From positions 1 to 45,452 of the forward strand of contig JAFUUL010000104.1 in the NCBI GenBank assembly GCA_017483805.1: DNA of 45,452 bases. The letters are read 5' to 3'. The DNA is from Prevotella sp. (GTDB taxonomy: Bacteria > Bacteroidota > Bacteroidia > Bacteroidales > Bacteroidaceae). Shown here piece by piece: positions 5,394-21,482 of the stretch. Every line of letters begins with the position of its first letter. Position 1 is the stretch's first letter. The notes beneath the pieces were generated by a model. It was given only the letters and a program-made list of their open reading frames with translations. It had not been told where the DNA came from and did not search any database. A program made the translations under genes and the position numbers.

Positions 5394-6013
5394 CAGAAGA
5401 ACACTATGCCCACGGTGGCGCAGATGAAGCCTACCAGGAATCCGGCCACCACCTGCGAGAGCGAGTGCTGACGCAGGATGATGCGGGCCGTGCCCAGGAT
5501 GCCGGCCAGGATGAACACCACGCAGAGCCACCACACGGGGTTGAAGGCGAAATACTCGGCAAACACAAACAGGGCTCCGGCCACGCCACCGATGCCGGCG
5601 GTGTGGGTGGAGATCTTCCACCACACGTTGATGATGGCGCAGATGACCTGAATGAACAGGGCCGCCAGGACGATGCTCGACACGAAGTGGTAGATGTGCA
5701 TGCTGTCGAGCGTCCACAGACAGACGCCGTAGCAGACGATGGAGATGCCGTAGGGCACCATGCGGCGGCGCTTCTGGCCCAGTTCGAGCAGCGTCCAGCC
5801 CTGGGCTCGGCGGTAGAGGTGGATGATGAAGGTGGGCAGCAGGATGGTGAACAGGTAGATGATAGTGAGCACCAGCAGGCGATAGGGCAGGGGCAGCAGG
5901 TTGAGGTAACTGAAGGTGAACAGGGCCACGAGTCCTACCATCGGGAGGTAGAACGGGGTGAAGATGAGGCTCACCAGACGGGCGGCATAGATGATGTTCT
6001 TCTCGCGTGTCAT
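5393..6013 (-). CDS. PAP2-superfamily membrane phosphatase
   Basis: This 206-residue protein consists mostly of transmembrane helices and carries the PAP2 signature in two parts: KISTHTAGIGG near residues 133-143 (the S-x-H-T-A motif with the proton-donor histidine) and RIILRQHSLSQVVAGFLVG near 177-195 (R-x5-H-S-x3-V-x-A-G, with the nucleophile histidine). The family removes phosphate from lipid or small-molecule phosphates such as undecaprenyl diphosphate or phosphatidate; the substrate cannot be read from the sequence. The ATG overlaps the rpoN stop by one base (TAATGA), so the two are surely co-transcribed. Next to ispG it could act on an isoprenyl diphosphate, but that is inference. Confidence 0.8.
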   Translation of the reverse strand: MTREKNIIYAARLVSLIFTPFYLPMVGLVALFTFSYLNLLPLPYRLLVLTIIYLFTILLPTFIIHLYRRAQGWTLLELGQKRRRMVPYGISIVCYGVCLWTLDSMHIYHFVSSIVLAALFIQVICAIINVWWKISTHTAGIGGVAGALFVFAEYFAFNPVWWLCVVFILAGILGTARIILRQHSLSQVVAGFLVGFICATVGIVFF

Positions 6014-7512
6014 TACTTTCTCAGTCTTGCTACGGGTATGCCCATTTGCTCACGGTATTTGGCCACGGTGCGGCGGGCTATGGGGTAGCCCTGGGCCTTG
6101 AGTGCCTCGCCCAGGGCCTCGTCGCTCATGGGCTTGCGCTTGTCCTCGGCCTCGATGATGTCGCGCAGGGCGGCCTTGATCTCACGGGTCGACAGTTCCT
6201 CGCCGCTGTCGGTCACGTAGCCGTCGCTGAAGAAAAACTTCAGGGGGAACGTGCCCCAGCGGGTCTGCACATATTTCGAGTTGGACACTCGCGAGATGGT
6301 GCTCAGGTCGAGCCCCGTCTTCTCGGCGATGTCCTTCAGTATCATGGGGCGCAGCAGGCTCTCGTCGCCTTCCTCGAAGAAGCGGTGCTGCCATTGGATG
6401 ATGGCCTTCATGGTCAGGGTCAGCGTGCGGCGGCGGGTCTGTATGGCGTCTATGAAGTTCTGGGCGGCGTCCACCTTCTGCTTGGTGTAGAGCAGGGCCT
6501 CCTTCATCTGTCGGCTCAGCCCGTCCTTGTTCTTCTGGTAGTCCTTCAGCAGGTCGGCAAACGACTGCGACACCTGCAGGTGGGGCATCTCGCCGGCGTT
6601 CAGCGAGAAGGTGACGGTGCCGTCGTCCTGCGTGTCGACGATGAAGTCGGGCGTGATCTGCTGCATCGAGCGGCCGATGGTCTCGCCCATCGATGCGCCG
6701 GGCTTGGGGTTCAGGTGGCGCAGTTCGTTCATCAGGGCCTCCGTCTGTGGGGCGTTCAGTCCCAGGGTCTGCTGTATCTTGTCCCAATGCTTCTTGGTGA
6801 ACTCGTCGAAGTAGTCGCTGATGACGGTCCGCATCAGATCTTTCACCCTCGACTTCTCGCGGCGGTCTATCTGTAGCAGCAGACACTCGCGCAGGTCGCG
6901 TGCTCCGATGCCGGCAGGGTCCAGATGCTGCAGCCGGTGCAGCACGTGCTCCAGTTGGCGGGTGGTCAGGTCGATGCCGTGATAGATAGCCAGTTCCTCG
7001 CAGATGCTGTCCAGCGAGGTGCGCAGCAGGCCGTCGTCGTCGAGCGAACGGATGAGATACTCCATCACGTAGCGCTCCTGGTCCGTCAGTTCCATCTCGC
7101 CCACCTGCTCCAGCAGTTGGTCGTAGAAGGAGAGGCTCTCGCCGTAGACCATTTCCTCGCGCTCCTCGGCACTGGAGCGTCCGCCCTGATAGACGGGCAG
7201 GTCCTCGTCGTCGCGGCCCAGGTTCTCCAGTGCGGCATCCAGCGCGTCGCTGCGCTCCTCGCGTTCCCGCTGGGCGTCGAAGTCGTCGGCAGCATCGGCC
7301 GCATCCTGTGCCTCGGGGCCTTCAGGATAGTCGGCGTAGCCCTCGTCGACGGTAGGCTCCAGGGCCGGGTTGTCGTGCATCTCGGTCTCTATGCGCTCCA
7401 GCAGTTGCTGGAGGGGCATCTCCGTCAACTGCGACTGCAGGAGTTGCTGCTGCGATATGCTCTGCTGCAACCGCTGCTCCAGTTTCTGCTCCTGTATCTG
7501 ACTCTGTGCCAC
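6013..7512 (-). CDS. rpoN: RNA polymerase sigma-54 factor
   Basis: Sigma-54 directs core polymerase to -24/-12 promoters that need an AAA+ activator. The N-terminus is the glutamine/leucine-rich activator-interacting region (residues 1-50, ending METHDNPALEP-like as ETEMHDNPALEP), followed by an acidic linker (55-110), the core-binding domain, a helix-turn-helix region, and near the C-terminus the RpoN box ARRTVAKYREQMG. The length of 499 residues is normal. The start codon is GTG at 7512; the next ATG in frame would remove the conserved N-terminus. Upstream lies a heptamer-repeat spacer with a small hairpin. No sigma-54 activator is present in the window. Confidence 0.95.
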   Translation of the reverse strand: MAQSQIQEQKLEQRLQQSISQQQLLQSQLTEMPLQQLLERIETEMHDNPALEPTVDEGYADYPEGPEAQDAADAADDFDAQREREERSDALDAALENLGRDDEDLPVYQGGRSSAEEREEMVYGESLSFYDQLLEQVGEMELTDQERYVMEYLIRSLDDDGLLRTSLDSICEELAIYHGIDLTTRQLEHVLHRLQHLDPAGIGARDLRECLLLQIDRREKSRVKDLMRTVISDYFDEFTKKHWDKIQQTLGLNAPQTEALMNELRHLNPKPGASMGETIGRSMQQITPDFIVDTQDDGTVTFSLNAGEMPHLQVSQSFADLLKDYQKNKDGLSRQMKEALLYTKQKVDAAQNFIDAIQTRRRTLTLTMKAIIQWQHRFFEEGDESLLRPMILKDIAEKTGLDLSTISRVSNSKYVQTRWGTFPLKFFFSDGYVTDSGEELSTREIKAALRDIIEAEDKRKPMSDEALGEALKAQGYPIARRTVAKYREQMGIPVARLRK

Positions 7513-8304: not shown

Positions 8305-8323
8305 TACCAACAGTTAGGGATGC
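8305..8323 (+). promoter_or_regulatory. Putative operator copy 1 (shared with the SusC operon)
   Basis: TACCAACAGTTAGGGATGC lies 20 bases upstream of the -33 element of the gene at 8427. It matches the sequence at 20072-20090 at 17 of 19 positions. The core TACCnACAGTTAGGnA has a weak inverted symmetry (TACC/GGnA). A common regulator is inferred; none is encoded nearby. Confidence 0.5.
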
Positions 8324-8343
8324 CAATTACTCCCTGTGTGGTA

Positions 8344-8374
8344 TTGCCCGCCTGCTGAAATCGCCGTACCTTTG
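8344..8374 (+). promoter_or_regulatory. Promoter of the secreted protein gene at 8427
   Basis: TTG (8344-8346), 20 bases and TACCTTTG (8367-8374). The wider sequence GGTATTG, 20 bases ending CGCCG, TAnCTTTGCACC is shared with the SusC-operon promoter at 20019-20049. Confidence 0.7.
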
Positions 8375-8426
8375 CACCTGTTTTTATAAGGTAACTAGGT
8401 TTATTAACTAAAGAAGGATTACGCAA

Positions 8427-10049
8427 ATGAAGAAACTTTTACTTACTCTGATCGTTGCCTTGGCCGCCACATCGGGGCTCAAGGCACAGACCTGGCAATG
8501 GGGCACGGCCTCATGGAACATCGAAGACGGCACGGTGTATGACGGAATCGCCGATTTCAACGAAAAGGGCGGCCTGGTGCTGACCTATACGAACCCTGCC
8601 GAATTCTATCTGACGTTTCTCAACATCATTGCCGTGAGTTACGACCTCTACGTCGATGATGCCACCGAAGCCACCAAGCAGGTGACCACCGGACAGGGCG
8701 GCACCGCCGTCCCGTTCAAGTACGACTTCGTGGAGGGTCACAAGTACAAGATCGTCACCACGGGGGCCGTGCTGGTGCAGGCCAATCTGGCCACCTATTC
8801 CACCGACACGCTCTCAGAGAACACCACCGACTCCTACTCCATCTCGTTCACCATCAAGGGCCCCGAGTTGGTGAAGACCATCGAAGTGGAGGGCTATCAG
8901 TCGCTGAGCATTACTGACCAGAACGAGCAACTCACCTACTCGCTGCTCGATACCGAGGGCATCAAGCAGGCACTGGGCGTGAGCGACATCAGCGAGGCTG
9001 CCGCCTACGGCCTCAACCTGAACGGCTCCTACAACGTGCACCATGCCGACTACTACGACGGCTGGCGCGATGCTGACGGCGAATACACATCCTACAACGG
9101 CGGCTGGGACCAGTACAACGGTCGCAACGCCTATGCCCCCGTCTACTCCATCAAACTGACCGAGGGCGTGGACTCCATTCTCTACTACTTCTATGACTAC
9201 TGGCGCGTGTACGATCCCGAAGAGGGTGGTGAGACCGGCGGTTCGGGCGTGACAACCACCAGCCGTCTGCAGGCCCCTGACACCCACTACAATAGCGTCA
9301 TCTGGGAATACGACAATGGCGACGGCACCACCACTCAGTACACGCGCAACTACCGCGTGGACGAGGGTCAGGACTACAAGGCCTCCTTTGCCATTGTGGC
9401 CAACAAGAAGTATGTCATCATCAACGCCACGCTCCACTTCCTGAGCCAGGAGGACTATGCCGCCCTGCAGGCCGGTCGCAAGTATGAGGGCTTCGTGGGC
9501 ATAGGCACAGCCATAGGTGCCCAGCCGGGTGTTCCCGTGGCCGGCATTGCCACGCAGGAGCAGACCGTCACCATCGAGGATGCCGAGGAGGCAGGACAGG
9601 TGAACATCACCTTCTCTGGCTTCACCGTAGCCGTCCCGCCCATCACCACCGAGAACCTGACCATCACCGCCAAGGCTGAGAAGGCTGCCGACGGCTCGAT
9701 CACCTACAGTTCGGAGCCTCAGCAGATCGGTCTGTCGCTGGGTGCCATGACCGCCTACTATCAGGCCACCATCAAAGGCACGCAGGCTTCAGAGAGCGAG
9801 GCTCCCGTACTGGTGCTCACCCTGGCTCAGGCAGCCACCGTCACCGTTGTGTTCAACACCACCGCCGAACTGGCCTCGGCTGCACTCAGCGCCGAGTATG
9901 CCGCCATCACTTCGGTAGAGGCCGTGAAGATTGCCGCCGAGGCCGCCGAGGTCTACAACCTGAATGGCGTGCGCCAGACGACCATCCAGAAGGGCTTCAA
10001 TCTGGTGAAGCAGGCCGACGGCAGTGTCCGCAAGATTCTGGTGAAGTAA
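8427..10049 (+). CDS. Secreted protein with putative DUF4859-like and calycin-like regions
   Basis: A 540-residue exported protein with signal peptide MKKLLLTLIVALAATSGLKA. Residues about 165-265, rich in Tyr, Trp, Asn and Gly, resemble DUF4859-type domains as I recall them; residues about 390-490 (NITFSGFTVAVPPITTENL and a run of beta-strands) resemble the Bacteroidota calycin-like domain. Both assignments are tentative. The C-terminus (VYNLNGVRQTTIQKGFNLV, ending RKILVK) is like the short C-terminal tails of many Prevotella surface proteins and may be a sorting signal. There is no enzyme motif. It is convergent with the SusC operon and shares an upstream motif with it, so it may bind or display the same nutrient; this is inference. 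Confidence 0.85.
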   Translation: MKKLLLTLIVALAATSGLKAQTWQWGTASWNIEDGTVYDGIADFNEKGGLVLTYTNPAEFYLTFLNIIAVSYDLYVDDATEATKQVTTGQGGTAVPFKYDFVEGHKYKIVTTGAVLVQANLATYSTDTLSENTTDSYSISFTIKGPELVKTIEVEGYQSLSITDQNEQLTYSLLDTEGIKQALGVSDISEAAAYGLNLNGSYNVHHADYYDGWRDADGEYTSYNGGWDQYNGRNAYAPVYSIKLTEGVDSILYYFYDYWRVYDPEEGGETGGSGVTTTSRLQAPDTHYNSVIWEYDNGDGTTTQYTRNYRVDEGQDYKASFAIVANKKYVIINATLHFLSQEDYAALQAGRKYEGFVGIGTAIGAQPGVPVAGIATQEQTVTIEDAEEAGQVNITFSGFTVAVPPITTENLTITAKAEKAADGSITYSSEPQQIGLSLGAMTAYYQATIKGTQASESEAPVLVLTLAQAATVTVVFNTTAELASAALSAEYAAITSVEAVKIAAEAAEVYNLNGVRQTTIQKGFNLVKQADGSVRKILVK

Positions 10050-10058
10050 GCAACCGTA

Positions 10059-10149
10059 GAGTTTGGACGAAGCAAACCCAGAGTTTGGACGAACTAAACC
10101 TGGAGTTTGGACGAAGCAAAGTGGGAGTTTGGACGAACCAAACTCCCAC
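10059..10149 (+). repeat. Four direct repeats of exact 22-bp period
   Basis: GAGTTTGGACGAA occurs at 10059, 10081, 10103 and 10125 without a mismatch, each followed by nine variable bases. The variable part tends to pair back with GTTTG, so every unit can fold. Only the last copy forms a perfect 12-bp stem. Confidence 0.85.
10121..10149. terminator. Bidirectional terminator between convergent genes
   Basis: GTGGGAGTTTGG (10121-10132), loop ACGAA and CCAAACTCCCAC (10138-10149) form a perfect 12-bp stem. The rightward side is followed by TTCTCTTTCT and the leftward side by a weaker TTTGCTTC. It separates the secreted protein gene from the end of the SusC operon. Confidence 0.75.
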
Positions 10150-10169
10150 TTCTCTTTCTGCTGTCCTGA

Positions 10170-11720
10170 TCAGCGCCCCACCCAGGTGGTGCCGCTGAAA
10201 CGCACCTGATAGGGCCATTGCTCGTCGTTGGCCAGACTTTCGGGCGTGTTGACGTCGTTGCCGGCCGAGTTGGTGGTCATGTCCCAGGGGTGGCGCCAAT
10301 GTTCGGTGGGGGCGCCGCTGACCACAAACCACAGGCGCGTGGCATTCTCAGGCACCATGAACGTAGCCGTTCCCTCGCGGTCGGCGTGCATCTCGCCATA
10401 GACGCGGCTGTTGTCGCTCAGCAGGGCCACAAAGCCATAGCGCCAGCCGGCCTTGTCCACCTGATAGGCCCGATAGCCCTTGGCACCGGCTATGCCACGG
10501 AATTCGGCCTTCACCTCGCGTCCCTCCTCGGGCAGGTTCAGCCGGATGACATTGTAGCCATAGTTCTGCGGGCAGAGCGTAGAGTCTATCTGCAGCCAGT
10601 CGTCGCCCACGCTGTTCAGTCGCACGCTGTAGAGATCCTGCAGTCCGCGGCCCCGCTCACGAATGCCGTCGATATCCCAGGTCACGGCCCGGCAGGCATA
10701 GTTGAACATATCGCGGCAGAAGTCCTCCTGCGAGGTGCCCGTGATACGCTGGTAGGCCTCCACGGGATCTTCGGGTCGGGTGGACTCGCGCCACAGGCGG
10801 CCAATGAAGTCCTGGCCGTGCAGTTGGCACCAGTAGTCCTGCACGTAGAAGTTGTAGTAGCGTATCTGCTCGTGCAGCAGGTTCTGGTGGCAAGCCCTGT
10901 AGATGTAACTCGACCAGCCGTCGGCAAACTGCTTCTCCGGGTAGACCTTGTAAGCCTGCCACTGGGCACAACTCTCCCACCAGGCACAGCCGCCCGAGGC
11001 GTTGGGCCCGAAGCCGTAGCGCCAGCCGTGGTCGGTACCGTGGTCGCAGCCCACTATGTACTGGAAGGTGTGGCCAACCTCGTGGGCCGTCGTCACCTGC
11101 GTGTTGGCCGCATCGGGGTTCACGTCCAGCGTGCCCGCCTTGTTGTCAACGCCCGAACCGGTGGCCCGCCACGTGGTCTCGTAGTGCACGAACATACATA
11201 TCTTATAGGTGTCGAGCGTCACCGAACTGTCAGGGTTGGCGAAACCCAGTTGGCGGGTGTTCACGTCCCATATCTTCTCTGCCCGCTCCAACAGGTCCTT
11301 GGGGCTGAAGGCATAGCGGGCGTTGGCCTTCGTCGGGTCGCTGCCAAAGCCTTTCTCCCAGAACACCACGAAATGGGCCGACTGCATGGAGCGGCTGAGG
11401 CTGTACTGGCTGTCGTCGCTGCTGAAGTCGTTGTTGCGCAGATAGTTAGGCCGATAGAGCCCCGGTCCGGGGTTTTGGAAGTAGAACGTGTCCACCTGGG
11501 CATAGTTGCCGCGCTCCTGCGTGCCGTCCTTGTGGAGGACGTAGAAGCGCAGGGCATCGAAGCGGAGCGAATCGCCCTCGTTGACCACATAGGCCTGCTT
11601 GCGTTGCAGGAAGGCTCCATTCATCTTGACCCCATATAGGGTTTGCTGAGCCTGACCATAGGCCAGACCCAGCAGCAAAGTGAGAAATGCGACGCCAAGT
11701 CGCTTCCTTCTTATCATCAT
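10170..11720 (-). CDS. Secreted DUF6055-type putative zinc metallopeptidase
   Basis: This 516-residue protein begins with MMIRRKRLGVAFLTLLLGLA and a cleavable signal ending near YGQA. The middle holds TTAHEVGHTFQYIVGCDHGT, an HExxH zinc motif, and about 40 residues on WWESCAQWQAYKVYPE, where a glutamate could be the third ligand as in gluzincins. This layout fits the DUF6055 family, known to me only as a putative peptidase group. The C-terminal part is probably a beta-sandwich. It is the last gene of the SusC operon, 19 bases after the thioredoxin gene. A surface or periplasmic peptidase would fit a peptide-uptake operon; catalytic activity is inferred. Confidence 0.75.
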   Translation of the reverse strand: MMIRRKRLGVAFLTLLLGLAYGQAQQTLYGVKMNGAFLQRKQAYVVNEGDSLRFDALRFYVLHKDGTQERGNYAQVDTFYFQNPGPGLYRPNYLRNNDFSSDDSQYSLSRSMQSAHFVVFWEKGFGSDPTKANARYAFSPKDLLERAEKIWDVNTRQLGFANPDSSVTLDTYKICMFVHYETTWRATGSGVDNKAGTLDVNPDAANTQVTTAHEVGHTFQYIVGCDHGTDHGWRYGFGPNASGGCAWWESCAQWQAYKVYPEKQFADGWSSYIYRACHQNLLHEQIRYYNFYVQDYWCQLHGQDFIGRLWRESTRPEDPVEAYQRITGTSQEDFCRDMFNYACRAVTWDIDGIRERGRGLQDLYSVRLNSVGDDWLQIDSTLCPQNYGYNVIRLNLPEEGREVKAEFRGIAGAKGYRAYQVDKAGWRYGFVALLSDNSRVYGEMHADREGTATFMVPENATRLWFVVSGAPTEHWRHPWDMTTNSAGNDVNTPESLANDEQWPYQVRFSGTTWVGR

Positions 11721-11739
11721 ACAATGGCTAAAGTTTGGT

Positions 11740-12891
11740 TTACTTTTGAGGGAGTTTTCCGTCCATGGCATCAATCAGCATGCGCAGCAACTCGTCGGTG
11801 GGACGCGAAAGGCGCATATTGCCGGCCTGCGACTGCGCCTGGCGCTTGCCCGACTGGATGTCGTCGACGCGCTGCTGCAGGATGGCCTTCATCTGGTCAC
11901 GGTACTTGGCATCCACCTGGGGCGTGAAGGGCTTGGTCCACTGGGCCAGTTGCATGTCGCCGGCATCCAGCCCGTCGGTAGCCAGGTACTCCCTGATGCG
12001 GTCAAGATAGGCCTGCAGGTCCTTCTGCTTTTCGGCCAGCGTGATGAGTGTCACCAGGCGGTAGTGTTCGGCATCGGGGCGCTTCAGTTCCTTGAGCAGG
12101 GCGATGTAGTCGTTGAACCGCTTCTCGTCGAGCGTGGCCGTGCCGTTCTCCTCATTGATGAGTTGGCGCTGATAGGTGCCCAGCACGTTGCGGATCTTCA
12201 TCTCCACGGGGCGGTTACCTATCTGCGAGGTCAGCGACTCGGGGTTGCGGGCCGTATAGAGGAACGACTCAGAGAAGGGGTTGGTGATGTTGCGCATGAA
12301 GACCACACGCAGTACGCTGTCGGCTGCGAAGGTCTCAGCGCGGCCGGCCAGCAGGGCCTCAGCCACGTCGTTAGCCTCCTGATGCTTGTAGGCGGCGGTC
12401 AGCGTGCCCAGGTATTCCTGCAGGAACTGCGGGTCGCGGTCGCCCGACTTCCAGCGGGCCTCGAGGGCCGACGAGCCGTTGTCCTGGCTCTTCTCCTCCA
12501 CACGCTTGATGAATTCGTCGGCATTGCTGCCGCCCAGGAAGCGGCCAATCTCCTGTGCATCCGCATTGAAGATGACGAAGGTGGGATAGGCCGTGATCTG
12601 CAGACGCTTGGCCAGAGGGGCGCCATAGGCACTCTCCATGTCGATCTGCACGCTGACGAACCGCGGGTTCAGGGCTTGGCCCACTTTCTCCTGGGGGAAC
12701 ACATCGCGGGCCATCATTTTGCAGGGGCCGCACCACTGGGTGTAGGCATCCAGAAAGATGAGTTTGTTTTCTGCCTTGGCCTTGGCCGAAGCCTGTTCGA
12801 GGGTCGTTCCTTCGGGTTCGAAGGCCACCCCCTGGGCCATCATGGTCGCGGTGACCATGAGGGCTGTGAGAGTCATTGTTAGTTTTTTCAT
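11740..12891 (-). CDS. Secreted thioredoxin-fold protein with WCGPC active site
   Basis: A 383-residue exported protein. Signal peptide MKKLTMTLTALMVTATMMAQ; residues about 25-140 are a thioredoxin domain with DAYTQWCGPCKMMARDVF (active-site CGPC) and the cis-proline loop ITAYPTFVIF. The remaining 240 residues are helical, TPR-like and without a recognised motif. Such proteins usually reduce or swap disulfides in the periplasm. The ATG at 12891 is chosen because it opens the signal peptide. Its place between a surface lipoprotein and a putative peptidase suggests it keeps cysteine-containing substrates or partner proteins reduced, but this is not shown by the sequence. Confidence 0.85.
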   Translation of the reverse strand: MKKLTMTLTALMVTATMMAQGVAFEPEGTTLEQASAKAKAENKLIFLDAYTQWCGPCKMMARDVFPQEKVGQALNPRFVSVQIDMESAYGAPLAKRLQITAYPTFVIFNADAQEIGRFLGGSNADEFIKRVEEKSQDNGSSALEARWKSGDRDPQFLQEYLGTLTAAYKHQEANDVAEALLAGRAETFAADSVLRVVFMRNITNPFSESFLYTARNPESLTSQIGNRPVEMKIRNVLGTYQRQLINEENGTATLDEKRFNDYIALLKELKRPDAEHYRLVTLITLAEKQKDLQAYLDRIREYLATDGLDAGDMQLAQWTKPFTPQVDAKYRDQMKAILQQRVDDIQSGKRQAQSQAGNMRLSRPTDELLRMLIDAMDGKLPQK

Positions 12892-12922
12892 TGTCTTTCT
12901 TATTAACGCGTTAGTAATTCTT

Positions 12923-14584
12923 TTATTGCATAGAGAACTTCCAGGCCATGTCAGCCACCCGTCCGGGTATGACATAGTCGTAACTGCTGTTGGTATTCAG
13001 GATGCCGCTGGCAGGATTGATGAGGTACTCGTAGAGGTGGCCCTCACGGGTCTGCTCGTTCCAGGTGGCAATGTGCACCAGATTGTCGGAACGTGGCACC
13101 AGGCCGTAGCCGTAGACCGTGCCGTGGTAGTACTTCATGATGCGCACGCAGGTGACCTGCTCCTGCTCGCTGGGAGCCGTCCAGGCCAGCGTGGCCGGCT
13201 GCTGGCTGTCGTAGGCAAAGTTGTAGACCTTGTTGCCCGCACCATAGTAGACGAAACTGCCCACATGGCTGGCGGCCAGCGTGGTGGCCTCAGTAATCTG
13301 GGGGCAGAGGCCGTCCAGCGGGTAGAGGCCAACGCCGATGTTCTCAGTCAGCGAGTTGGTGCTGGAGAAGTTGGTCACGGCCAGATAGCGTTCGCTGCCC
13401 TTGGCCATGAGCAGATAGTCGAAGGGGCGCAGGCTGACGGCCTGACTGGTGCCGCGGCCCCAGTCGGCCAGCAGCAGCGTCATGCCCGTGTCGTTCACGT
13501 CGAAGGCGGCCACGTCGAGGTTCTGCGGGCCGAACTGCTCCAACTGTGCCTGGTTGTAGCCTGCAAAGAGGAAGCGGTGGTTGGTCTGGTCGTAGACCAC
13601 CACGCCGTAACTCAGCGTGTTGGGCACCTCGGCGTTCCATGCGGCCAACTGGCCCACGCCATCGTCGAACTTGGCCAGGCCGAAGCGGGTGCTGCGGCCG
13701 GAGGAGGCACTGAACGAATAGGTGTTGGTGTAGACGTGATTGTCGTTGATGAGCACCTCGCTGCTCTGACCCGACACCACGGCAGAGCCGTGCTCGCCAT
13801 ACCAGACGGGAGCCTCGCGGTCGGGGGCGTCGTAGAAGAAGTCCTCGAAGGAGAGTGCCTTCTCTATGCCGTTCTCGCTGACGCCCACCAGCGTGCGGTC
13901 GGTGCACAGGCCGATGTAGTTGTTGCCCGATGCCAGCGACACGGCAATGTCGAGACAGCGCACGGGGCGGCCCGGCAGCAGTTCGCCGTTGGTATCCTCG
14001 TAGAGGTTGGTGTAATAGCGGTTGTAGTTGGCGTTCAGTTTGGTCCATGGGTTATAGATGAGGGCCAAGTCGGAGTTGCCCGGCCGGTCGGCACGCTCAT
14101 AGAAGACGAGCCATCCGCCGTCGAACACCTCGCTGACAGCCACCGGCAGTCGGAAGAACTCGCGGATGCCGTCGTTGCGGTTGGTCACCGTCAGTTGTAC
14201 GATGTAGTTGCCGCCCGTGGTGGGCACGGAGGCATGGAGGATGCGCTCGGTGCCGAGCGTGTCGATGCGCGAACTGGCTCCCACACCGGTGACGGCACTG
14301 TAGATGGTCCACAGATAGTCTAATGGGGCATCGTCGCTGCCTGCGACCTGTGAGCCATTGAAATAGACGCGCGGCTCCAGATGGAGCGTGTCGTAGCGCA
14401 TGATGGCATACTCCGGCTGGATGCCGGCATCCAGCGTGTCGATGCTGATGGTGTCCAGTTCGTGGTAGTCGTAGTTGCCTTTGTCGTCATAGCAACCGAC
14501 GAGCTGCAGGAGCACCACGGGAAGTGATAAGTGATGAGTGATGAGTGATAAGTGCCGGGTGATAAGTGATATGTAGTGTTTCAT
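12923..14584 (-). CDS. PKD-like family surface lipoprotein of the Sus operon
   Basis: A 553-residue lipoprotein with lipobox LLQLVGC (Cys near 31). After the cysteine come YDDKGNYDYHELDTISI and a beta-rich PKD-like N-terminal region, then a long beta-propeller-like region with repeats such as WLVFYERADRPGN. This matches the Bacteroidota PKD-like lipoproteins found after SusD and DUF4843 proteins, thought to bind substrate at the cell surface. Oddly, most of the signal peptide (ISLITRHLSLITHHLSL) is translated from a heptamer tandem repeat (14524-14572). The start is the ATG at 14584; no other start would give a signal peptide. The spacing to its neighbours is 28 and 31 bases. Confidence 0.85.
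   Translation of the reverse strand: MKHYISLITRHLSLITHHLSLPVVLLQLVGCYDDKGNYDYHELDTISIDTLDAGIQPEYAIMRYDTLHLEPRVYFNGSQVAGSDDAPLDYLWTIYSAVTGVGASSRIDTLGTERILHASVPTTGGNYIVQLTVTNRNDGIREFFRLPVAVSEVFDGGWLVFYERADRPGNSDLALIYNPWTKLNANYNRYYTNLYEDTNGELLPGRPVRCLDIAVSLASGNNYIGLCTDRTLVGVSENGIEKALSFEDFFYDAPDREAPVWYGEHGSAVVSGQSSEVLINDNHVYTNTYSFSASSGRSTRFGLAKFDDGVGQLAAWNAEVPNTLSYGVVVYDQTNHRFLFAGYNQAQLEQFGPQNLDVAAFDVNDTGMTLLLADWGRGTSQAVSLRPFDYLLMAKGSERYLAVTNFSSTNSLTENIGVGLYPLDGLCPQITEATTLAASHVGSFVYYGAGNKVYNFAYDSQQPATLAWTAPSEQEQVTCVRIMKYYHGTVYGYGLVPRSDNLVHIATWNEQTREGHLYEYLINPASGILNTNSSYDYVIPGRVADMAWKFSMQ
14524..14572. repeat. Heptamer repeat GTGATAA x7 encoding a signal peptide
   Basis: Seven consecutive 7-base units run from 14524 to 14572: GTGATAA, GTGATGA twice, GTGATAA, GTGCCGG, GTGATAA and GTGATAT. 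Three units make 21 bases, so the protein has a 7-residue period (ISLITRH, LSLITHH, LSL). The stop-free strand is the coding strand. Confidence 0.88.
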
Positions 14585-14612
14585 CGCTTCTTGGGTCTTA
14601 GAGGGTTACTAA

Positions 14613-15380
14613 CTAAAAGGTGACAGGTACGCCCGTCTCGTCGGTGAGCGGGGTGTCGTGGGTGGCGTTGTACTCATTGAGCGCACGCTGCATCACCTGC
14701 TGCAAGTAGACGGCATAGGAGACCGACACCACGTTGGTCTCGGTGTTGATGGCCGTAGTAGCATTGTAGTTGATGGTGAAGTCGACGAGTCCCAGCGTCT
14801 CAATCATGAACTGGTATTTCACTCGCGAGTAGATGCCGAAGTAGCGGCTCAGGGCCACCTGGGGGTAGTTGGCCGAGTCCCAACTGTCGGGCTTGGCCAG
14901 GTAGTTCTTCAGTACAACGGAGAACGTCTGGCGTCCCGTAGTGCCCGGAGCAAACTCCGTGTTCTCCTTCACGCGGAAACTGATGTGGCCGTCCTCCTGG
15001 GTGAACAGGTCGGGGCTGGAGAGATTCAGAGCGTTGAAGTGCACCTGATAGGTGCCGCTGATGGCACCGGCAGGCAGCACATACTCCTCGGTGCGCACCG
15101 TGGGCACCACCAGGGCCGAGTCGCCGCCGAAGGCTTCCAACGTGAACGTGCGGTCGTGGTCGGCAGGCACGCCGCTGATCTGGGCATAGAACGTGACGCT
15201 GCCTTCGCCGTAGGCATAGGAGTAGTTGTAGGTGGTCGACTCGTAGACGGCAGCGGCATTGCCCACCCAGATGTTCAGGGCTGTGAACGAGGTGTCGAAG
15301 GTGTCTACCTCCTCATGCTCGCACGAGGTGAATCCGACGAGGGCTGCGCTGAATATTAAGGAATAAAGACGTAGTTTCAT
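14613..15380 (-). CDS. DUF4843-type surface lipoprotein of the Sus operon
   Basis: A 255-residue lipoprotein: MKLRLYSLIFSAALVGFTSC with the lipid cysteine at 20, then an acidic tether (EHEEVDTFDTS) and beta-strands. YNYSYAYGEGSVTFYAQISG, TYQVHFNALNLSS and ISFRVKENTEFAPGTTGRQT resemble the DUF4843 family, which follows SusD in many Bacteroidota operons. It is presumed to sit on the outer leaflet and assist substrate capture. The start at 15380 gives the signal peptide; a longer frame into susD is a shadow. It lies 10 bases after the SusD gene. Confidence 0.82.
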   Translation of the reverse strand: MKLRLYSLIFSAALVGFTSCEHEEVDTFDTSFTALNIWVGNAAAVYESTTYNYSYAYGEGSVTFYAQISGVPADHDRTFTLEAFGGDSALVVPTVRTEEYVLPAGAISGTYQVHFNALNLSSPDLFTQEDGHISFRVKENTEFAPGTTGRQTFSVVLKNYLAKPDSWDSANYPQVALSRYFGIYSRVKYQFMIETLGLVDFTINYNATTAINTETNVVSVSYAVYLQQVMQRALNEYNATHDTPLTDETGVPVTF

Positions 15381-15390
15381 AATGCTCTGT

Positions 15391-16824
15391 TTATTTGTTA
15401 GGTTCGCGCTGTGCGGCTTCGGTCTCGGTGAGCGGCAGGGGGAAGGTGTAGACCTTCTCAGCCACGGCATCCACGCCGGAGTAGAGAATGATGTTGCGGT
15501 TGAGGCGCTTGTAGAGGAAGAACAGTTGGCCCTCGCCCAGGAACTCGCGCCGGTACTCATGGATGAGTTCCTCGTCGAAGTCGTCGGGCAGTTCGGTCAG
15601 CACGGGCAGGTTGCGGGCCACCCGCAGGGTGTTGAGCGTAGCCCGTGCGGCATCGGCGTCGCCGAGCCGGTACTCCGTCTCGCTCTTGATGAGGTAGGCC
15701 TCGGCGATGCGGATGAGGGGCAACTTGTTGCGATAGTAGTCTTCGGTGCTGCTCGGGTCGTCGTACTTCATCAGGTAGCGGTTGTTGGCATGGGTGGCCG
15801 TGCCCGACTTGAAGAGGAAGGTGTAGCGGTAGTCCTGAGTGGCGTTGTCGAAATAGTCCAGCAGACGGTCGCGGGTCACGGCGAAACTGTTCTGGGAGTC
15901 ATCGGAGAAGTAGGCATCGGCCACGCCTGACTTGATGGTCAGGTCGTTCAGGGCAAACAGATGCTCGGAGGCCAGCACGCGGTCGTAGCCAGCCTGCAGA
16001 TTCTCCACCGTGGCCCAGGGGAACTGCTCGCTCTCTATCACCTCGGTGGCTGCATCGAGTGCACTGCGGTAGTCGCCCTTCCACAGATAGACGCGGGCCT
16101 CAAGGGCCCGGACGGCATAGTAGTTCAGGTGCAACTGGCGGTGGAGCAGATAGCCGTTGTCCACCGACTCGGTGATCTCGCGCTCGGTGACGATGGGGTC
16201 GCTGGTGCGGAGCAGGGCTTCGGCAGCCTGCAGGTCTTGCAGGATGGACTCGGTCACCTCTGCCACTGTGAGTTGGGGAAACACCTTGTAGGTCAGGTCG
16301 GTGCTGTAGGGTATCGACAGTTGGTCGGGGTTGACGGCAAAACTCACGCCGAAGCAGCGCAGCAGGTCGAAGTGGAGGAAGGCCCTCAGGGCCAGGGCCT
16401 CGCCCTTGATGACGTCGTGGTTGTCGCGCGAAAAGAGGCCACGGTCGTCATCGATATGAGCCAGCAGATTGTTCACGTTGGCAATGCTGCTGTAGTTGGC
16501 CGACCAGATGCCGCGGATGGCGTTGGTAGGCGATGCAGCATCGTAGTCGTAGGCGGCTGCATCGTCGTATTGTGATGAATAGTAGTAGTCCCACTCTTGG
16601 CCCAGAATGCCGATGAACCCATAGGTGAGTTCCTTGGTATAGGTGCTCGATGTGACCATGGAGGAATAGACGCCGGCCAGGGCCTCCTTATAGCCGCCCT
16701 CGGTGCTGAACAGTTCGGAGTCGTCCACCTGCGAACGAGGCTGAACGTCGAGCCAGTCGTTGCAACCCGACAGCGTGGCGCTGAACAATAAAGCGTAAAC
16801 AACAGAAGAAAAGTATTGTTTCAT
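15391..16824 (-). CDS. susD: SusD/RagB-family substrate-binding lipoprotein
   Basis: This 477-residue lipoprotein would form the lid over the SusC channel and bind the nutrient. MKQYFSSVVYALLFSATLSGC carries the lipobox (Cys21), followed by NDWLDVQPRSQVDDSELFST, a very typical SusD opening; the TPR-like helical part has EALALRAFLHFDLLRCFG and EARVYLWKGDYRSALDAA, and the C-terminal third has IRIAEAYLIKSETEYRLGD and EYRREFLGEGQLFFLYKRLNR. All are family hallmarks. The ATG at 16824 lies 25 bases after the SusC stop. The ligand cannot be predicted from the sequence. Confidence 0.95.
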   Translation of the reverse strand: MKQYFSSVVYALLFSATLSGCNDWLDVQPRSQVDDSELFSTEGGYKEALAGVYSSMVTSSTYTKELTYGFIGILGQEWDYYYSSQYDDAAAYDYDAASPTNAIRGIWSANYSSIANVNNLLAHIDDDRGLFSRDNHDVIKGEALALRAFLHFDLLRCFGVSFAVNPDQLSIPYSTDLTYKVFPQLTVAEVTESILQDLQAAEALLRTSDPIVTEREITESVDNGYLLHRQLHLNYYAVRALEARVYLWKGDYRSALDAATEVIESEQFPWATVENLQAGYDRVLASEHLFALNDLTIKSGVADAYFSDDSQNSFAVTRDRLLDYFDNATQDYRYTFLFKSGTATHANNRYLMKYDDPSSTEDYYRNKLPLIRIAEAYLIKSETEYRLGDADAARATLNTLRVARNLPVLTELPDDFDEELIHEYRREFLGEGQLFFLYKRLNRNIILYSGVDAVAEKVYTFPLPLTETEAAQREPNK

Positions 16825-16849
16825 GATTCTCAATCTATTTAGTCCTCAA

Positions 16850-19800
16850 TTAAAAGGTTGCCGTCAGCGAGAAGGAGAACGAGCGGGCATAGGGGTAACT
16901 GAGTCCGCGCTCGGCCTTCACCGTAGAGAGATGGAACACGTCGTTGATGTAGCCCGTCACGCGCAGCCGTTCCAGATGAGCCTTGCGCAGCCAAGAGCAG
17001 TTCTTGAAGTCGTAGTAGGCCGAGACGCTGGTCAGGTCGAGCATGTTGTTGCGCTGCACGAAGCGGGTCGAGGCGTAGGTGGTGGTGGGCGTACTGGAGA
17101 TGTGCTTGTAGAGGGCCACGTCGCCGGCAGTGTTCCAGGTGTCGCTGAATACGCGGCGGTCCACGTTGTTGGCTATGTTCACGTTCTCCACGCGGTCCAC
17201 CAGCGTCTGGTTGTAGTAGTCGCCGCCCAACTGGTAACTGAACAGCACGCTGAGGCCTGCGCCGCGGTATTCGCCGTTGAGGCCGAAGGTGCCGTGCACC
17301 TTGGGGTTGCTGTCGCCGGCAATGATATAGTCGTCGGTGGTGTAGTCATAGGTGGTCGAGCCGTCTTTCTTGAGGAACATCTCACGGCCGGTGGCGGGAT
17401 CGATGCCCAGCGACTGCACGGCCCAGATGACGCTCATCGACTGTCCCTCCTCGTAGCGGATGATGGGCGAGGTGGTGTTGCGCGAGTCCTGTCCACGGTT
17501 GAACGATGACAGGGCATCGCTGATCTTGCTCACCTTGTTCACGTTGTGGGCGATGCTGCCGTTGAGGCTGAAGTACGACTGTCCTCGGTGGTAGAAGCGC
17601 CAGTTGGCCGTAGCCTCGATGCCCTGGTTCTGCACGTTGCCCAGGTTCTCCATGTAACTGCTGAAGCCCGTAGACGATGGGATGGACATCGAAATAAGGG
17701 CATCGCGGGTGCGGCTGTCGTAGTAGTCGAAGCGCAGGTTCAGCGTGTTCAGGATGCTCAGGTCGAGGCCGATAGTGAAGTCGCCCGTCTGCTGCCACTT
17801 CAGGTAGTCGTTGGGCATGCCCATCAGGTAGGCACCCGAGATGTTGTCGTAGATGATGTTGTCGTAGAACTTATAGGTGGCCTTGGCTTGATAGGGCGAG
17901 AAGTTCTGGTTGCCCGTGAGGCCGTAGGTGATGCGTAACTTGGCCAGCGTGAGCCAGCGCACATCCTTCATGAAGGGCTCCTTGTGCAGGTTCCAGCCCG
18001 CACCGACGCTCCAGAACGTGCCCCAGCGGTTGTCGCTGCCGAAGACCGACGAGCCGTTGAAGCGCAGGCTCAGGTCGAGCAGGTAACGCTCGTCGTAGGA
18101 GTAGTTGGCGGCACCGGTGATGCCCAGCGAGCGGGTGGTGCTCTCCGAGCCGGAGGGCTTGCCGTCCTCGGCATACTGCTTGGCAAAGGTGATATAGTCC
18201 ACGTGGTTGTTCAGGAAGCCCCAGGCCGTCATGCCCTCCGAGTTGGAATCTGACGACTGCAGCGAATAGGCGGCATTCGACAGGAAGAGGTGCTTGCCCC
18301 ACTGGTGGGAGTAGTGGCCCGTCAGGTCGACGCTGACCTTGGTGCTCTCGCCGTTGTTGATGGAGTAACTGCCGCGCTGGAAGTAGCGGTCGCCCGTCCA
18401 GGTGGTGTAGCGGGTGTGGTCGCCGGGATAGAAGTCCTCGCGCTTGTTGCTCTGGTGGGTGTAGCCCACGCGGGCCGTGAAGCGCAGGTCCTCGGTCGGA
18501 CGGTACTCCAGATAGAAGTTCTCCGTTATCTCGGTGTATTTCGAGAAGTTCTTCGTGCCTATCTGCGCATTGTAGAGCGGGTTATAGTAGGTCTGCGTGC
18601 TGCCGTTGGCACCAGGGGTGGTATAGGTGCCCAGCACCTTCTGGATGTTGCCGTTCTCGTCGGTGGCCGAGAAGTAGGGGTTCAGGCCCACGTAGTCGGA
18701 GAACGACCCGTAGGGGCTGTCATCGGCGCGGTTGCCCGTGACCGAGAGGGAGTTGCGGAACATGAACTTCTTGTAGCGGTAGGTCAGGTTGATGTTGCCT
18801 GACACGGTCTGGCGGTCTGACTCCTTCATGACGCCTGCCACCTTATTATATGACAGGGTGGCCGAATAGCGCATCTCCTGCGTGCCGCCCTCAATATAGC
18901 CAGAGTGCTTCTGGCTGATGCCTGTGCGCAGAGGCTGCGACAACCAGTAGGTGTCCACGCCGCGGGCTATGTCGGCGGCAATGCTGTTGTACTGCTCGTC
19001 GAGCAGGGCCTGATAGTAGGGGGCCGTCGACGAGTAGCGGCCGGAGTTCTGCTCCACCTGCAGTTTCTCGGCAGCGTTACATAGGTCGTAACTCGTCAGG
19101 TCGGGGGCCTCGAAACCCAGGTTGCCCGTATAGGTCACACGCAGTTCGCCGGCCTCCGGCTGAATGGTCTCCACCACGATGACGCCATTGCTGGCCTTCG
19201 AACCGTAGATGGCCTTGGCCGCGCCGTCCTTCAGGATGGTCACCGACTTGATGCGGTTGATGTCGAGGTCGAAGATCTGCTGCTGCGACGACTCAAAGCC
19301 GTCGAGTATGAACAGCGGTGCATTGGGGTTGCCGCTGTATTCGCCCTGCAAGCCGCTGAACGAGGCCTTGCCGCGAATGGTGATGTCGGCCATGTAGTTG
19401 GGGTTCGAGCCGTTGATGTTGTTCATGTCGACCACAAACGAAGGGTCGAGGGCCTGGATAGACTTCAGCACGTTGACACCCGACACTTGTTTCAGTTCCT
19501 CCTGTGTATAAGAAGAGGTGGAGCCGGTAAAGGTGGACGACTTGTAGTCGAACAGACCCGTCACCACGACTTCCTCCAGTTGGCTGTTGTTCTGAAGCAC
19601 AATGGAGAGGTTGGCATACACACGCTTGCCGTCGTAGGTTTTCGTCAGGGTCTTCATACCCACATACGAGTAGTCTACGGTGACTCGCCTGTCGCGGGGT
19701 ACCGTCACGGTGAAGCGGCCCTGATTGTCAGCCACGGCACCAGCCTTGGTCTCACGCACATAGACGGAGGCTCCCGGCAGGGGCTCGCCTTGCTCGTCTT

Positions 19801-19993
19801 TGATGGTGCCCTGCAACAGCAACGCGTTTTCCTGCAGGCCCGACAGGGGGCGCTGCGGCGTCACGGTCTGGATGGGCACCGACTCTTGCTTTCCGGCTTT
19901 GTTGTCATCCTGAGCATACAACCTGCTGGCCGTTATCGGGAGCAGCAGAAGAGCCGCTAAAGGTAATCTTAACCTAAGTAGTTTTCTTTTCAT
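16850..19993 (-). CDS. susC: SusC/RagA-family TonB-dependent outer-membrane transporter
   Basis: A 1047-residue transporter. Residues 1-27 are the signal peptide (MKRKLLRLRLPLAALLLLPI and on). About 58-145 is a carboxypeptidase D-like regulatory domain (LQGTIKDEQGEPLPGASVYV), then the TonB-box-like LEEVVVTG, the plug (about 150-275, with LKDGAAKAIYGSKASNGVIVV), and a 22-strand-type barrel ending in FSFSLTATF with a terminal phenylalanine. No extra N-terminal signalling (STN) domain is seen, so it is not itself an anti-sigma-linked sensor. It is the first gene of the operon and has its own promoter (20019-20049) with a possible operator upstream. Confidence 0.95.
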   Translation of the reverse strand: MKRKLLRLRLPLAALLLLPITASRLYAQDDNKAGKQESVPIQTVTPQRPLSGLQENALLLQGTIKDEQGEPLPGASVYVRETKAGAVADNQGRFTVTVPRDRRVTVDYSYVGMKTLTKTYDGKRVYANLSIVLQNNSQLEEVVVTGLFDYKSSTFTGSTSSYTQEELKQVSGVNVLKSIQALDPSFVVDMNNINGSNPNYMADITIRGKASFSGLQGEYSGNPNAPLFILDGFESSQQQIFDLDINRIKSVTILKDGAAKAIYGSKASNGVIVVETIQPEAGELRVTYTGNLGFEAPDLTSYDLCNAAEKLQVEQNSGRYSSTAPYYQALLDEQYNSIAADIARGVDTYWLSQPLRTGISQKHSGYIEGGTQEMRYSATLSYNKVAGVMKESDRQTVSGNINLTYRYKKFMFRNSLSVTGNRADDSPYGSFSDYVGLNPYFSATDENGNIQKVLGTYTTPGANGSTQTYYNPLYNAQIGTKNFSKYTEITENFYLEYRPTEDLRFTARVGYTHQSNKREDFYPGDHTRYTTWTGDRYFQRGSYSINNGESTKVSVDLTGHYSHQWGKHLFLSNAAYSLQSSDSNSEGMTAWGFLNNHVDYITFAKQYAEDGKPSGSESTTRSLGITGAANYSYDERYLLDLSLRFNGSSVFGSDNRWGTFWSVGAGWNLHKEPFMKDVRWLTLAKLRITYGLTGNQNFSPYQAKATYKFYDNIIYDNISGAYLMGMPNDYLKWQQTGDFTIGLDLSILNTLNLRFDYYDSRTRDALISMSIPSSTGFSSYMENLGNVQNQGIEATANWRFYHRGQSYFSLNGSIAHNVNKVSKISDALSSFNRGQDSRNTTSPIIRYEEGQSMSVIWAVQSLGIDPATGREMFLKKDGSTTYDYTTDDYIIAGDSNPKVHGTFGLNGEYRGAGLSVLFSYQLGGDYYNQTLVDRVENVNIANNVDRRVFSDTWNTAGDVALYKHISSTPTTTYASTRFVQRNNMLDLTSVSAYYDFKNCSWLRKAHLERLRVTGYINDVFHLSTVKAERGLSYPYARSFSFSLTATF

Positions 19994-20018
19994 ACGCAGT
20001 CTCTTAGTTTTCGCGGTG

Positions 20019-20049
20019 CAAAGTTACGGCGGTTTTCACGATGCCACAA
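20019..20049 (-). promoter_or_regulatory. Promoter of the SusC operon
   Basis: TTG (20047-20049, minus strand), 20 bases and TAACTTTG (20019-20026). The wider element GGTATTG...CGCCG-TAnCTTTGCACC has the same length and ends as the promoter of the secreted protein at 8344-8374. Confidence 0.75.
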
Positions 20050-20071
20050 TACCTTTGGCGTGGTATTCTTG

Positions 20072-20090
20072 TACCCACAGTTAGGTATGC
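20072..20090 (+). promoter_or_regulatory. Putative operator copy 2 (SusC operon)
   Basis: TACCCACAGTTAGGTATGC lies 22 bases upstream of the -33 of the SusC promoter and is 17/19 identical to 8305-8323. Relative to transcription it is inverted compared with copy 1. It could equally affect the divergent phosphatase promoter at 20150. Confidence 0.5.
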
Positions 20091-20180: not shown

Positions 20181-21482
20181 ATGAAAAGGTTGATCTGGGT
20201 GTTCTGCTTGGTGGCTGCGGCAATGACTGTCGGAGCCCAGACGCCGCGGCAGGAACTCAAGAAGAATCTGCGGCTCTCGGCCAGTAACCTGGCGGTCTAT
20301 CCCGGCCCTCGGCAGCACAAACTGACCCCTGCCCCCGATGGCAAGCGGGCCTTCTACATCAGTCACTTCGGCCGGCACGGCTCGCGCCATCAGACTCGGG
20401 TGCTCGACTTCGAGTATGTGACCAGCGTGCTGCAGAAGGCCGAACAGAACGGCAAACTCTCGCCGCTGGGAGTCGACGTGCTGAGCCGCGTCAGTCTGAT
20501 GCACAAGGACACGGAGCACCGCATAGGCGAACTGACCACGCTGGGTGCCCAGCAGCATCGAGACATCATCAAGCGGATGTACGACCGCTTCCCTTCGGTT
20601 TTCGAGAAAGGCACCCTCGTCGATGCCCGCAGCAGCACCTCGGTGCGCTGCATCCTGTCGATGAACAACGCCCTGATGCAACTTATGCAACTGAATCCCG
20701 ATCTCCGTTTCTTCCAGGATGCCACACTGGCCGACCGCCATTATATGATGCCCTCCGACAAGACTTTGCAGTCTCGGGTTGCAACGGTGGAGACCAAGGA
20801 CAGTTATGTGGCCTACTGCAAGAAGCACAGCCGATGGAGACACGCCGTGGAGCAACTGTTCAACGATACGGCCTACGTCAACCACCACGTCAACGGCGAA
20901 CGACTGAACTACTACCTGTTCCGTCTGGCCTCCGGTCTGCAGAACACGGAACTGAGCCAGCAGATCACGCTCTACGACCTCTTCGATGATGATGACATCT
21001 ATCAGAACTGGCTGCGCGAGAATGCCTTCTGGTATCTCACCTATGGTGCCTCGTCGCTCAACGGAGGTGATCAACCCTTCATAGCCCGCGAACTGCTGCG
21101 CACCATCATCGTGCAGGCCGACAGTTGTCTGCAACTGCGCCACAACTCCGTCCACCTGCGCTACGGCCACGACACCACGCTGATGCCGCTGGTGTGTCTG
21201 CTGGGGCTCGACGGCTACGACCTGGCCACCGACAACCTGGAGCAACTCGAGCGGAGCGGCTGGGTGAACTACCGCATCTTCCCCATGGCCTGCAATGTGC
21301 AGTTCATCTTCTACCGCAAGGATGCCAACGACAAGGATGTGGTCTTCAAGGTACTGCTCAACGAAAACGAGGCCACGCTGCCCCTGAAGACAGACATGGC
21401 CCCGTATTACCACTGGGCAGACTTCCGCGACTATTACCTGCAGCGCATCAATGCCTACGAGGAGAACCACGCGGAAGAATAA
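20181..21482 (+). CDS. Secreted histidine acid phosphatase, clade-2 (phytase/MINPP-like)
   Basis: A 433-residue exported phosphomonoesterase. Signal peptide MKRLIWVFCLVAAAMTVGAQ; the catalytic motif ISHFGRHGSRH near 60-70 gives the RHGxR histidine nucleophile, and LRYGHDTTLMPL near 328-339 gives the HD proton-donor pair. Both mark histidine phosphatase clade 2. Bacteroidota relatives include inositol-phosphate phosphatases, which usually have HAE instead of HD, so substrate is uncertain: phytate, sugar phosphates or other esters. It is a single gene, divergent from the SusC operon, and convergent with sufE 6 bases beyond its end. Confidence 0.85.
   Translation: MKRLIWVFCLVAAAMTVGAQTPRQELKKNLRLSASNLAVYPGPRQHKLTPAPDGKRAFYISHFGRHGSRHQTRVLDFEYVTSVLQKAEQNGKLSPLGVDVLSRVSLMHKDTEHRIGELTTLGAQQHRDIIKRMYDRFPSVFEKGTLVDARSSTSVRCILSMNNALMQLMQLNPDLRFFQDATLADRHYMMPSDKTLQSRVATVETKDSYVAYCKKHSRWRHAVEQLFNDTAYVNHHVNGERLNYYLFRLASGLQNTELSQQITLYDLFDDDDIYQNWLRENAFWYLTYGASSLNGGDQPFIARELLRTIIVQADSCLQLRHNSVHLRYGHDTTLMPLVCLLGLDGYDLATDNLEQLERSGWVNYRIFPMACNVQFIFYRKDANDKDVVFKVLLNENEATLPLKTDMAPYYHWADFRDYYLQRINAYEENHAEE

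Follow-up and report, generated by a model that had tools for sequence, protein, structure and literature searches.

The window analyzed here, a 45,452-nucleotide stretch of Prevotella sp. DNA (assembly GCA_017483805.1, contig JAFUUL010000104.1, positions 1 to 45,452), carries a SusCD operon and, facing it, a gene for an exported protein; this report concerns the promoters of these two units and the regulon to which they probably belong. The operon lies on the minus strand and begins with a gene for a SusC/RagA TonB-dependent receptor of 1047 amino acids (16850..19993), recognized by NCBIfam and Pfam models and passing TIGR04056 (588.4 bits against a cut-off of 368.25, E 3.4e-176) and TIGR04057 (47.1 against 46.2). 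It is followed by genes for a SusD-like protein (15391..16833; PF14322, PF07980), a DUF4843 protein (14613..15560; PF16132), a PKD_2-family protein (12923..14584; PF16407), a thioredoxin-fold protein (11740..12975; PF13899, PF00085) that matched the NCBIfam DsbD and thioredoxin models below their cut-offs and, last, a DUF6055 protein (10170..11774; PF19527, E 1.4e-140). The DUF6055 protein also matched the NCBIfam Svx/AvrXca model at 54.9 bits against a cut-off of 625, and hence is no member of that family. On the plus strand, an open reading frame (ORF) at 8427..10049 encodes a 540-amino acid calycin-like protein (the 8427 protein), judged exported from its N-terminus. Its match to Pfam Calycin_like (E 1.8e-4, 22.3 bits) lies under the cut-off of 30, no NCBIfam family was matched, and a homology search of 60 genomes returned no further full-length relative. 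Since the DUF6055 gene converges on the 8427 gene, the promoters of both units face inward and bound a single 11.8-kb block.

Two 19-base copies of a shared motif had been placed upstream of these promoters, at 8305-8323 and 20072-20090, by the original prediction. We confirmed these positions, the identity of 17 of 19 bases, the gaps of 20 and 22 bp between the copies and the TTG of the -33 element, and the equally spaced GGTATTG...CGCCGTAnCTTTGCACC common to both core promoters. The operator unit spans 16 bp and has the form of an inverted repeat, TACC-N8-GGTA (8305-8320 and 20072-20087), which in the relatives compared reads equally well on either strand and of which near-perfect versions, e.g., TACCAACAGTTTGGTA and TACCAAACGTTTGGTA, are frequent there. 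Because the unit is an inverted repeat, the opposite orientation ascribed to the two copies is no true difference. In the 8427 promoter (plus strand), box 1 (TACCAACAGTTAGGGA, 8305..8320), an imperfect 7-2-7 inverted repeat within the 19-mer, is followed by box 2 (TACTCCCTGTGTGGTA, 8328..8343), which adjoins the TTG of the -33 element (8344..8346), and by the -7 element TACCTTTG (8367..8374). The susC promoter repeats this order on the minus strand, with box 1 (TACCTAACTGTGGGTA) at 20072..20087 within the other 19-mer, box 2 (TACCACGCCAAAGGTA) at 20050..20065, again adjoining the TTG at 20047..20049, and the -7 element TAACTTTG at 20019..20026; TAnnTTTG is the published -7 consensus (PMC7366714). 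From the centre of box 1 to the -7 box there are 54.5 bp in the 8427 promoter and 53.5 bp in the susC promoter, and the next inverted repeat follows at 23 and 22 bp, respectively, so that each promoter has a tandem pair. These tandem inverted repeats support the earlier suggestion of a site for a dimeric regulator. The shared GGTATTG is present in both promoters as claimed, but it is made up of the -33 TTG and, before it, the right arm of box 2, and thus is partly a second operator that had been missed.

At up to three mismatches the 19-mer pattern matched exactly twice in the window (mean 0.06 and maximum 1 in 100 dinucleotide shuffles), and in the assembly (3,626,307 bases, 3.63 Mb, in 199 contigs) the exact pattern occurred at just these two places. 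The next-best copy, with two mismatches, lay upstream of cysK on contig C6. Matching the 19-mer loosely is uninformative by itself, since three mismatches gave five matches in this genome vs. 13 for the reversed control, and it was dropped as evidence. Two mismatches gave matches in 74 of 200 genomes, with TACCGACATTGAGGAATGC as a frequent form, and many matches of the reversed control as well. The composite pattern TACC-N8-GGKA-N43..49-TAnnTTTG, which joins box 1 to the -7 element, matched eight times in the genome and its reversed control not at all; the motif is therefore not strewn over the genome without relation to promoters. The first genes behind the eight composite promoters are those for a response regulator (RR-A), CysK, ThiS, an M16 peptidase, the 8427 protein, SusC, MetY and an ABC ATPase. 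The boxed cysK (TIGR01139, 447.6 against a cut-off of 350.95) heads an operon that continues with genes for DsrE, TusA, an SrpI-like type 2A encapsulin, a cysteine desulfurase and a Cys/Met pyridoxal-phosphate (PLP) enzyme, while thiS stands in a unit with ThiF (moeB) and JAB genes, and metY encodes an O-acetylhomoserine sulfhydrylase (TIGR01326, 629.1 against 495.1). The encapsulin (PF19307, E 1.5e-113) adjoins the desulfurase (PF00266, E 2.1e-150), as is characteristic of family 2A. The sulfur cluster at L070:2637-11300 holds genes for the PLP enzyme, cysteine desulfurase, 2A encapsulin with a cyclic-nucleotide (cNMP)-binding domain, TusA, DsrE and CysK, along with an SDF symporter, JAB, ThiF and ThiS, and resembles sulfur-carrier-dependent cysteine synthesis.

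To compare the window promoters with such sulfur promoters, we used a matrix built from 48 cysK, metY and thiS-moeB promoters of other species, which excluded the genome itself and G142, its near relative, and included other near relatives such as G129. On both window strands, at a threshold of 10, the matrix found just two sites plus their shifted registers, the 8305 site at 60.0 bits and the susC promoter at 45.4 bits. No score above 0 arose in ten Markov windows, and no match above 25 was found in 52 control loci (229 kb) that contained matches to the 8427 protein or distant SusC matches. The susC and 8427 promoters thus carry the same composite operator as cysK, metY and thiS promoters. 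Across the genus, the strict pattern matched 336 times in 131 of 200 genomes surveyed (this genome among them), compared to 41 times in 37 for the reversed control. We sorted 124 distinct promoters, drawn from a hand-picked part of the places listed and including orthologues from near relatives and chance matches, by their first genes. The clusters were named by eye, with CysK, MetY, ThiF, ThiS, DsrE and the response regulator of this genome confirmed by models. cysK (25), metY (20), thiS-moeB (12) and DsrE (8) genes together made up 65 of the 124; the others were further ThiF-like genes (4), exported proteins without an assigned family (11) and an ABC ATPase group (6), these last two with one doubtful member each, response regulators (6), SusC (5), a lipoprotein group (4), the 8427 gene (2), SDR (2) and 19 singletons. 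Some of the singletons are surely chance matches; they include one thiS, one encapsulin and one hemA-to-cysD operon. In the latter (L151:10083-15405 in G149), the box precedes a hemA-hemC fusion, hemD, hemB, a hemL-like gene (by eye) and cysD, so that the box is linked to genes for porphyrin and siroheme precursors and for sulfate activation. Exported proteins had by eye seemed binding-protein-like, an idea that was dropped when the member scanned (L071:7248-8171) matched no Pfam or NCBIfam family. A small heavy-metal-associated (HMA) domain protein is encoded near boxed genes at L362:1061-1399, adjoining a TonB-receptor-like gene (by eye), and a similar ORF occurs in L067.

The architecture of the operator was examined in 53 aligned promoters of 70 bp, which had been chosen just for TACC, GGTA, TA and TTTG (four promoters of 69 bp were excluded). 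Columns that had not been selected for were conserved as well, namely box 2 at columns 24-39 and the -33 TTG at 40-42, followed by the -7 box at 63-70. The consensus of the box, TACCAaa-NN-tgTGGTA, consists of inverted 7-mers on either side of a 2-bp spacer, and the arrangement can be written as TACCwAA-NN-TTwGGTA (box 1) and a looser TRCC-N8-GNKA (box 2). If transcription starts a few bases past TAnnTTTG, as we assumed in estimating the start from the -7 box, the tandem boxes would be centred at about -65 and -42. The operator is also retained at orthologous genes, among SusC relatives of at least 61% identity. Both boxes, with perfect arms, precede the SusC gene of G142 (97%); G062 (79%) has both boxes with one mismatch each (34.7 bits), and G117 (77%) has a perfect first box and no composite score above 12. 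All three possess RR-A, and in these RR-A-bearing relatives the absence of the motif before orthologous genes that would have spoken against the original prediction was not encountered, although G117 retains box 1 only. The SusC genes of G006, G156 and G160 (61-65%) gave no composite score above 12, and these genomes have no RR-A (G160 has a paralogue, RR-B). G142 also has a boxed orthologue of the 8427 gene, which came to light through the motif, and keeps the inward-facing promoter pair.

The original prediction saw no regulator gene near these promoters, and the regulator is indeed probably encoded elsewhere, with RR-A on contig G000:C6 as the best candidate. RR-A is a NarL/LuxR-type response regulator of 213 amino acids encoded at L070:1995-2636, beside cysteine genes, and has a C-terminal GerE/LuxR helix-turn-helix (PF00196, E 1.3e-16, 60.4 bits against a cut-off of 23.5). 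In an alignment of 56 rows (55 distinct proteins), the putative phospho-acceptor D53 and K104 of its weakly scoring N-terminal receiver are present in all 55 ungapped rows and D8 in 54 of 55. Culturable, non-pathogenic rumen strains with RR-A occur in Xylanibacter ruminicola and Prevotella communis. RR-B (G000:C49:56342-56974; L211:6340-6978, minus strand) is 46-47% identical to RR-A, and no box was found in its neighbourhood. The two were separated at 53% identity, with fragment matches in G134, G021, G077 and G171 assigned to RR-B by hand. Across the 200 genomes, box and RR-A or RR-B occurred together in 116, the regulator alone in 12, the box alone in 15 and neither in 57 (Fisher 5e-24, odds ratio 37, a statistic that ignores relatedness); the per-genome counts were entered by hand, and the totals of 131 and 128 genomes agree with the searches. 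RR-A lay less than 10 kb from a box in 21 of 26 cases and RR-B in 1 of 34, among the matches listed, i.e., 150 box places and the regulator genes of those genomes only. The association persisted elsewhere in the order: among genomes from other genera and families, the pattern occurred in 14 of 23 with a regulator (21 matches, control 6) and in 4 of 18 without one (5 matches, control 9).

The half-sites differ between the genomes that carry RR-A and those that carry RR-B. Excluding promoters that scored below 15, RR-B-only genomes had C at position 6 in 35 of 52 half-sites and RR-A-only genomes in 19 of 98, a difference that is confounded with gene type. In RR-B-only genomes C was found mainly at metY (24 of 28 half-sites), with a mixture of C and T elsewhere; where both regulators are encoded, C persists at metY (6 of 8) and A prevails at the remaining promoters (43 of 54). 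The first boxes of the window carry A in all four arms, and since C is favoured in RR-B-only genomes, we judged RR-B less likely to regulate the window sites.

NarL of E. coli binds 7-2-7 repeats such as TACCCCTAAAGGGGTA, and at ogt it needs a tandem pair of sites, one of which adjoins the -35 element (PMC4549865, PMC7419079). The operator described here likewise pairs inverted 7-mers across a 2-bp spacer in each dimer site, an engineered narG site also having the form TACC...GGTA, and has a tandem pair with one site adjoining the -35/-33 element. However, the centres of the sites are 33 bp apart at ogt and 22-23 bp apart here, and NarL serves a nitrate response, whereas the boxes here accompany sulfur genes and a Bacteroidetes core promoter. 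Nor did RR-A qualify as a NarL orthologue, its score of 40.2 bits with NarL model NF007935 being far under the NCBIfam cut-off of 250. The boxed operon in which an SrpI-like 2A encapsulin stands beside a cysteine desulfurase resembles a second known system. Family 2A desulfurase operons are recorded in 111 Bacteroidetes (PMC8346489), and in Synechococcus elongatus sulfur starvation induces an encapsulin-desulfurase pair homologous to that on C6 (PMC8049743). The operon here differs by the addition of CysK, DsrE, TusA and the proposed RR-A operator. The candidate regulator, a receiver-GerE protein, is of another kind than those that perform the same physiological task, including the control of cysK, in Proteobacteria and Firmicutes. 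There, CysB, CymR and similar sulfur regulators are LysR- and Rrf2-type proteins with other operators. Control of a SusCD operon would be a trait shared with the SusR, HTCS and ECF-sigma regulators of Bacteroides, which usually adjoin their SusCD operons; none of these types was found among the ten window ORFs scanned, one of which does encode sigma-54, and the operator here, unlike theirs, is common to biosynthetic genes.

Further indications of a sulfur signal came from short ORFs with runs of Met and Cys (e.g., MKTMMMNRMSMRMCCCCRSNMQMM...) that directly follow a boxed promoter in 12 genomes (G099, G136, G032, G094, G095, G149, G162, G187, G035, G179, G037 and G007; loci L071, L114, L133, L135, L143, L152, L180, L321, L332, L333, L334 and L337). 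In ten genomes the box starts 117-150 nt ahead of the match to Met-x-Met-xx-Cys-Cys-Cys, and in G032 and G095 the ORF lies within the leader of the boxed promoter. Where seen, the next gene encodes an exported protein without an assigned family, behind which L071 has a TonB-receptor (SusC-like) gene; several of the ORFs extend past the start of the exported-protein gene in another frame. The ORF looks like a candidate leader peptide that may sense sulfur amino acids. The DNA pattern is unspecific when used alone (57 matches in 48 of 200 genomes vs. 13 for the reversed control), and 23 of 30 fetched loci with the pattern had no box. In P. ruminicola 23, cysK, an O-acetylhomoserine sulfhydrylase gene and a gene for a RagA receptor, at most a possible counterpart of a boxed SusC, were reported to be expressed most highly on peptides, as compared to ammonium plus 3 mM methionine (PMC5552732). 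The box also stands ahead of cysK and the exported protein in two further P. ruminicola strains (11 matches in 4 genomes, reversed control 2).

Since the signs in the window match those that mark cysteine- and methionine-making genes in many related bacteria, the two window units are probably part of a response to sulfur supply. We consider it likely that the operators define a regulon for sulfur assimilation in Bacteroidales, which RR-A activates as tandem dimers and in which the SusCD operon and the 8427 gene form the arm at the outer surface. In this model a pair of RR-A dimers would occupy the tandem boxes next to each other, with box 2 adjoining the -33 element, and bound RR-A would recruit RNA polymerase and so activate transcription, the trigger probably being a shortage of cysteine or methionine. 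The SusCD-DUF4843-PKD-thioredoxin-DUF6055 operon and the 8427 protein may then serve to capture a sulfur nutrient at the cell surface, e.g., peptides or disulfides; if we may guess, the thioredoxin-fold protein hints at disulfide or peptide sulfur as the putative SusCD substrate. The original prediction of a single nutrient-uptake regulon is thus upheld as regards a shared regulon and altered as regards its content, which is chiefly sulfur genes, with SusC and exported proteins forming a smaller part.

Several observations weigh against this interpretation. The genes of the SusCD operon contain no proof of a sulfur substrate, the palindromes of the window boxes are imperfect, with 4 or 5 of 8 pairs matching, and the boxed ABC ATPase (L166:256-1122 on G000:C197) is nearest to PstB (327.5 against a cut-off of 343.2), i.e., it is a phosphate-transporter-like part and no sulfur protein, and is out of place in a sulfur-type regulon. 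The conservation of the operator is in part shared descent, since many matches are orthologous promoters. As for the regulator, the receiver of RR-A scored below its cut-off (PF00072, E 5.7e-5, 23.7 bits against 30.2), and no histidine kinase was recognized (by eye) beside it. The strict pattern was missing from 12 of 128 genomes with a regulator and present in 15 of 72 without one (25 matches, control 12), and cysK is boxed in G046 (99% complete), where no regulator was detected. Boxes ahead of the RR-A gene were few: 3 in the 30 loci fetched, 7 in the 80 named loci and 6 among the 124 sorted promoters. The first two counts led us to reject general autoregulation. A matrix match above 25 lay within ~3 kb in only 18 of the 80 named RR-A loci (21 matches, Markov null 0). 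Lastly, the published P. ruminicola data are ambiguous on the sulfur reading: the P. ruminicola 23 media all contained cysteine, a diaminopimelate dehydrogenase gene rose along with the cysteine genes, and cysK was more than tenfold lower under ammonium limitation (PMC5552732).

The same regulon might instead be repressed, with RR-A bound at box 2 blocking the -33 element and releasing the genes at sulfur shortage. The position of box 2 would suit such a role, and NarL represses at some promoters (PMC4549865); however, tandem sites at a fixed spacing upstream of the core promoter resemble the activator layout of ogt, and we regard repression as unlikely. It also seems rather unlikely that the operators mark this sulfur regulon but are bound by a protein other than RR-A or RR-B, RR-A being just a linked member. 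The pattern in the 15 genomes without a regulator, including G121 (4 matches), G038 and G040 (3 each), and the lack of a box at RR-A's own promoter in most fetched loci would agree with another binder, yet this leaves to be explained the co-occurrence of box and regulator, their linkage among the matches listed, the persistence of the association outside the genus and a 7-2-7 operator of the form bound by NarL. A general glycan- or nutrient-uptake regulon of the polysaccharide utilization locus type, as first proposed, is improbable: five SusC genes and the exported proteins are among the first genes, but 65 of 124 are cysK, metY, thiS-moeB or DsrE, and the Pfam scan of the six operon genes in the window saw no carbohydrate enzyme. 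That the two promoters merely have an extended core element in common, or go back to a single promoter that was duplicated, without a joint regulator, would account for their shared CGCCGTAnCTTTGCACC and GGTATTG, but is hardly credible and was rejected, together with chance, given the same boxes and geometry before unrelated genes (8 vs. 0 in this genome, 336 vs. 41 in the 200) and the clean control loci.

If the activated sulfur regulon is correct, it would assign a class of function to SusCD operons without glycan enzymes and link a sulfur signal to the family 2A encapsulins found in Bacteroidetes. Bacteroidetes are dominant in the rumen and gut, and a defined operator with a named candidate regulator makes the proposal directly testable. 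Our searches of open-access literature gave, among the matches listed, no description of this regulon or of the control of cysteine and methionine supply in Bacteroidetes. The regulator family and the operator type are already known; what would be new is the regulon. More tentatively, and as a possibility we would not yet favour, the orphan NarL-type pair RR-A and RR-B, with diverged half-sites, may run sulfur assimilation in the Bacteroidales, supplemented in some species by a translational layer of Met/Cys leader peptides that sense a lack of either sulfur amino acid. The regulon would then include TonB-dependent SusCD importers, which would add dedicated sulfur scavenging at the outer membrane to the scavenging of glycans.

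Two further genes lie close to the boxed promoters in the window. Divergent from susC is a histidine-phosphatase (branch 2) gene at 20181-21482; the composite scan gave no plus-strand site there, and we rejected a box for this gene. Near the 8427 promoter, at 6013-7512, the window encodes a sigma-54 factor.

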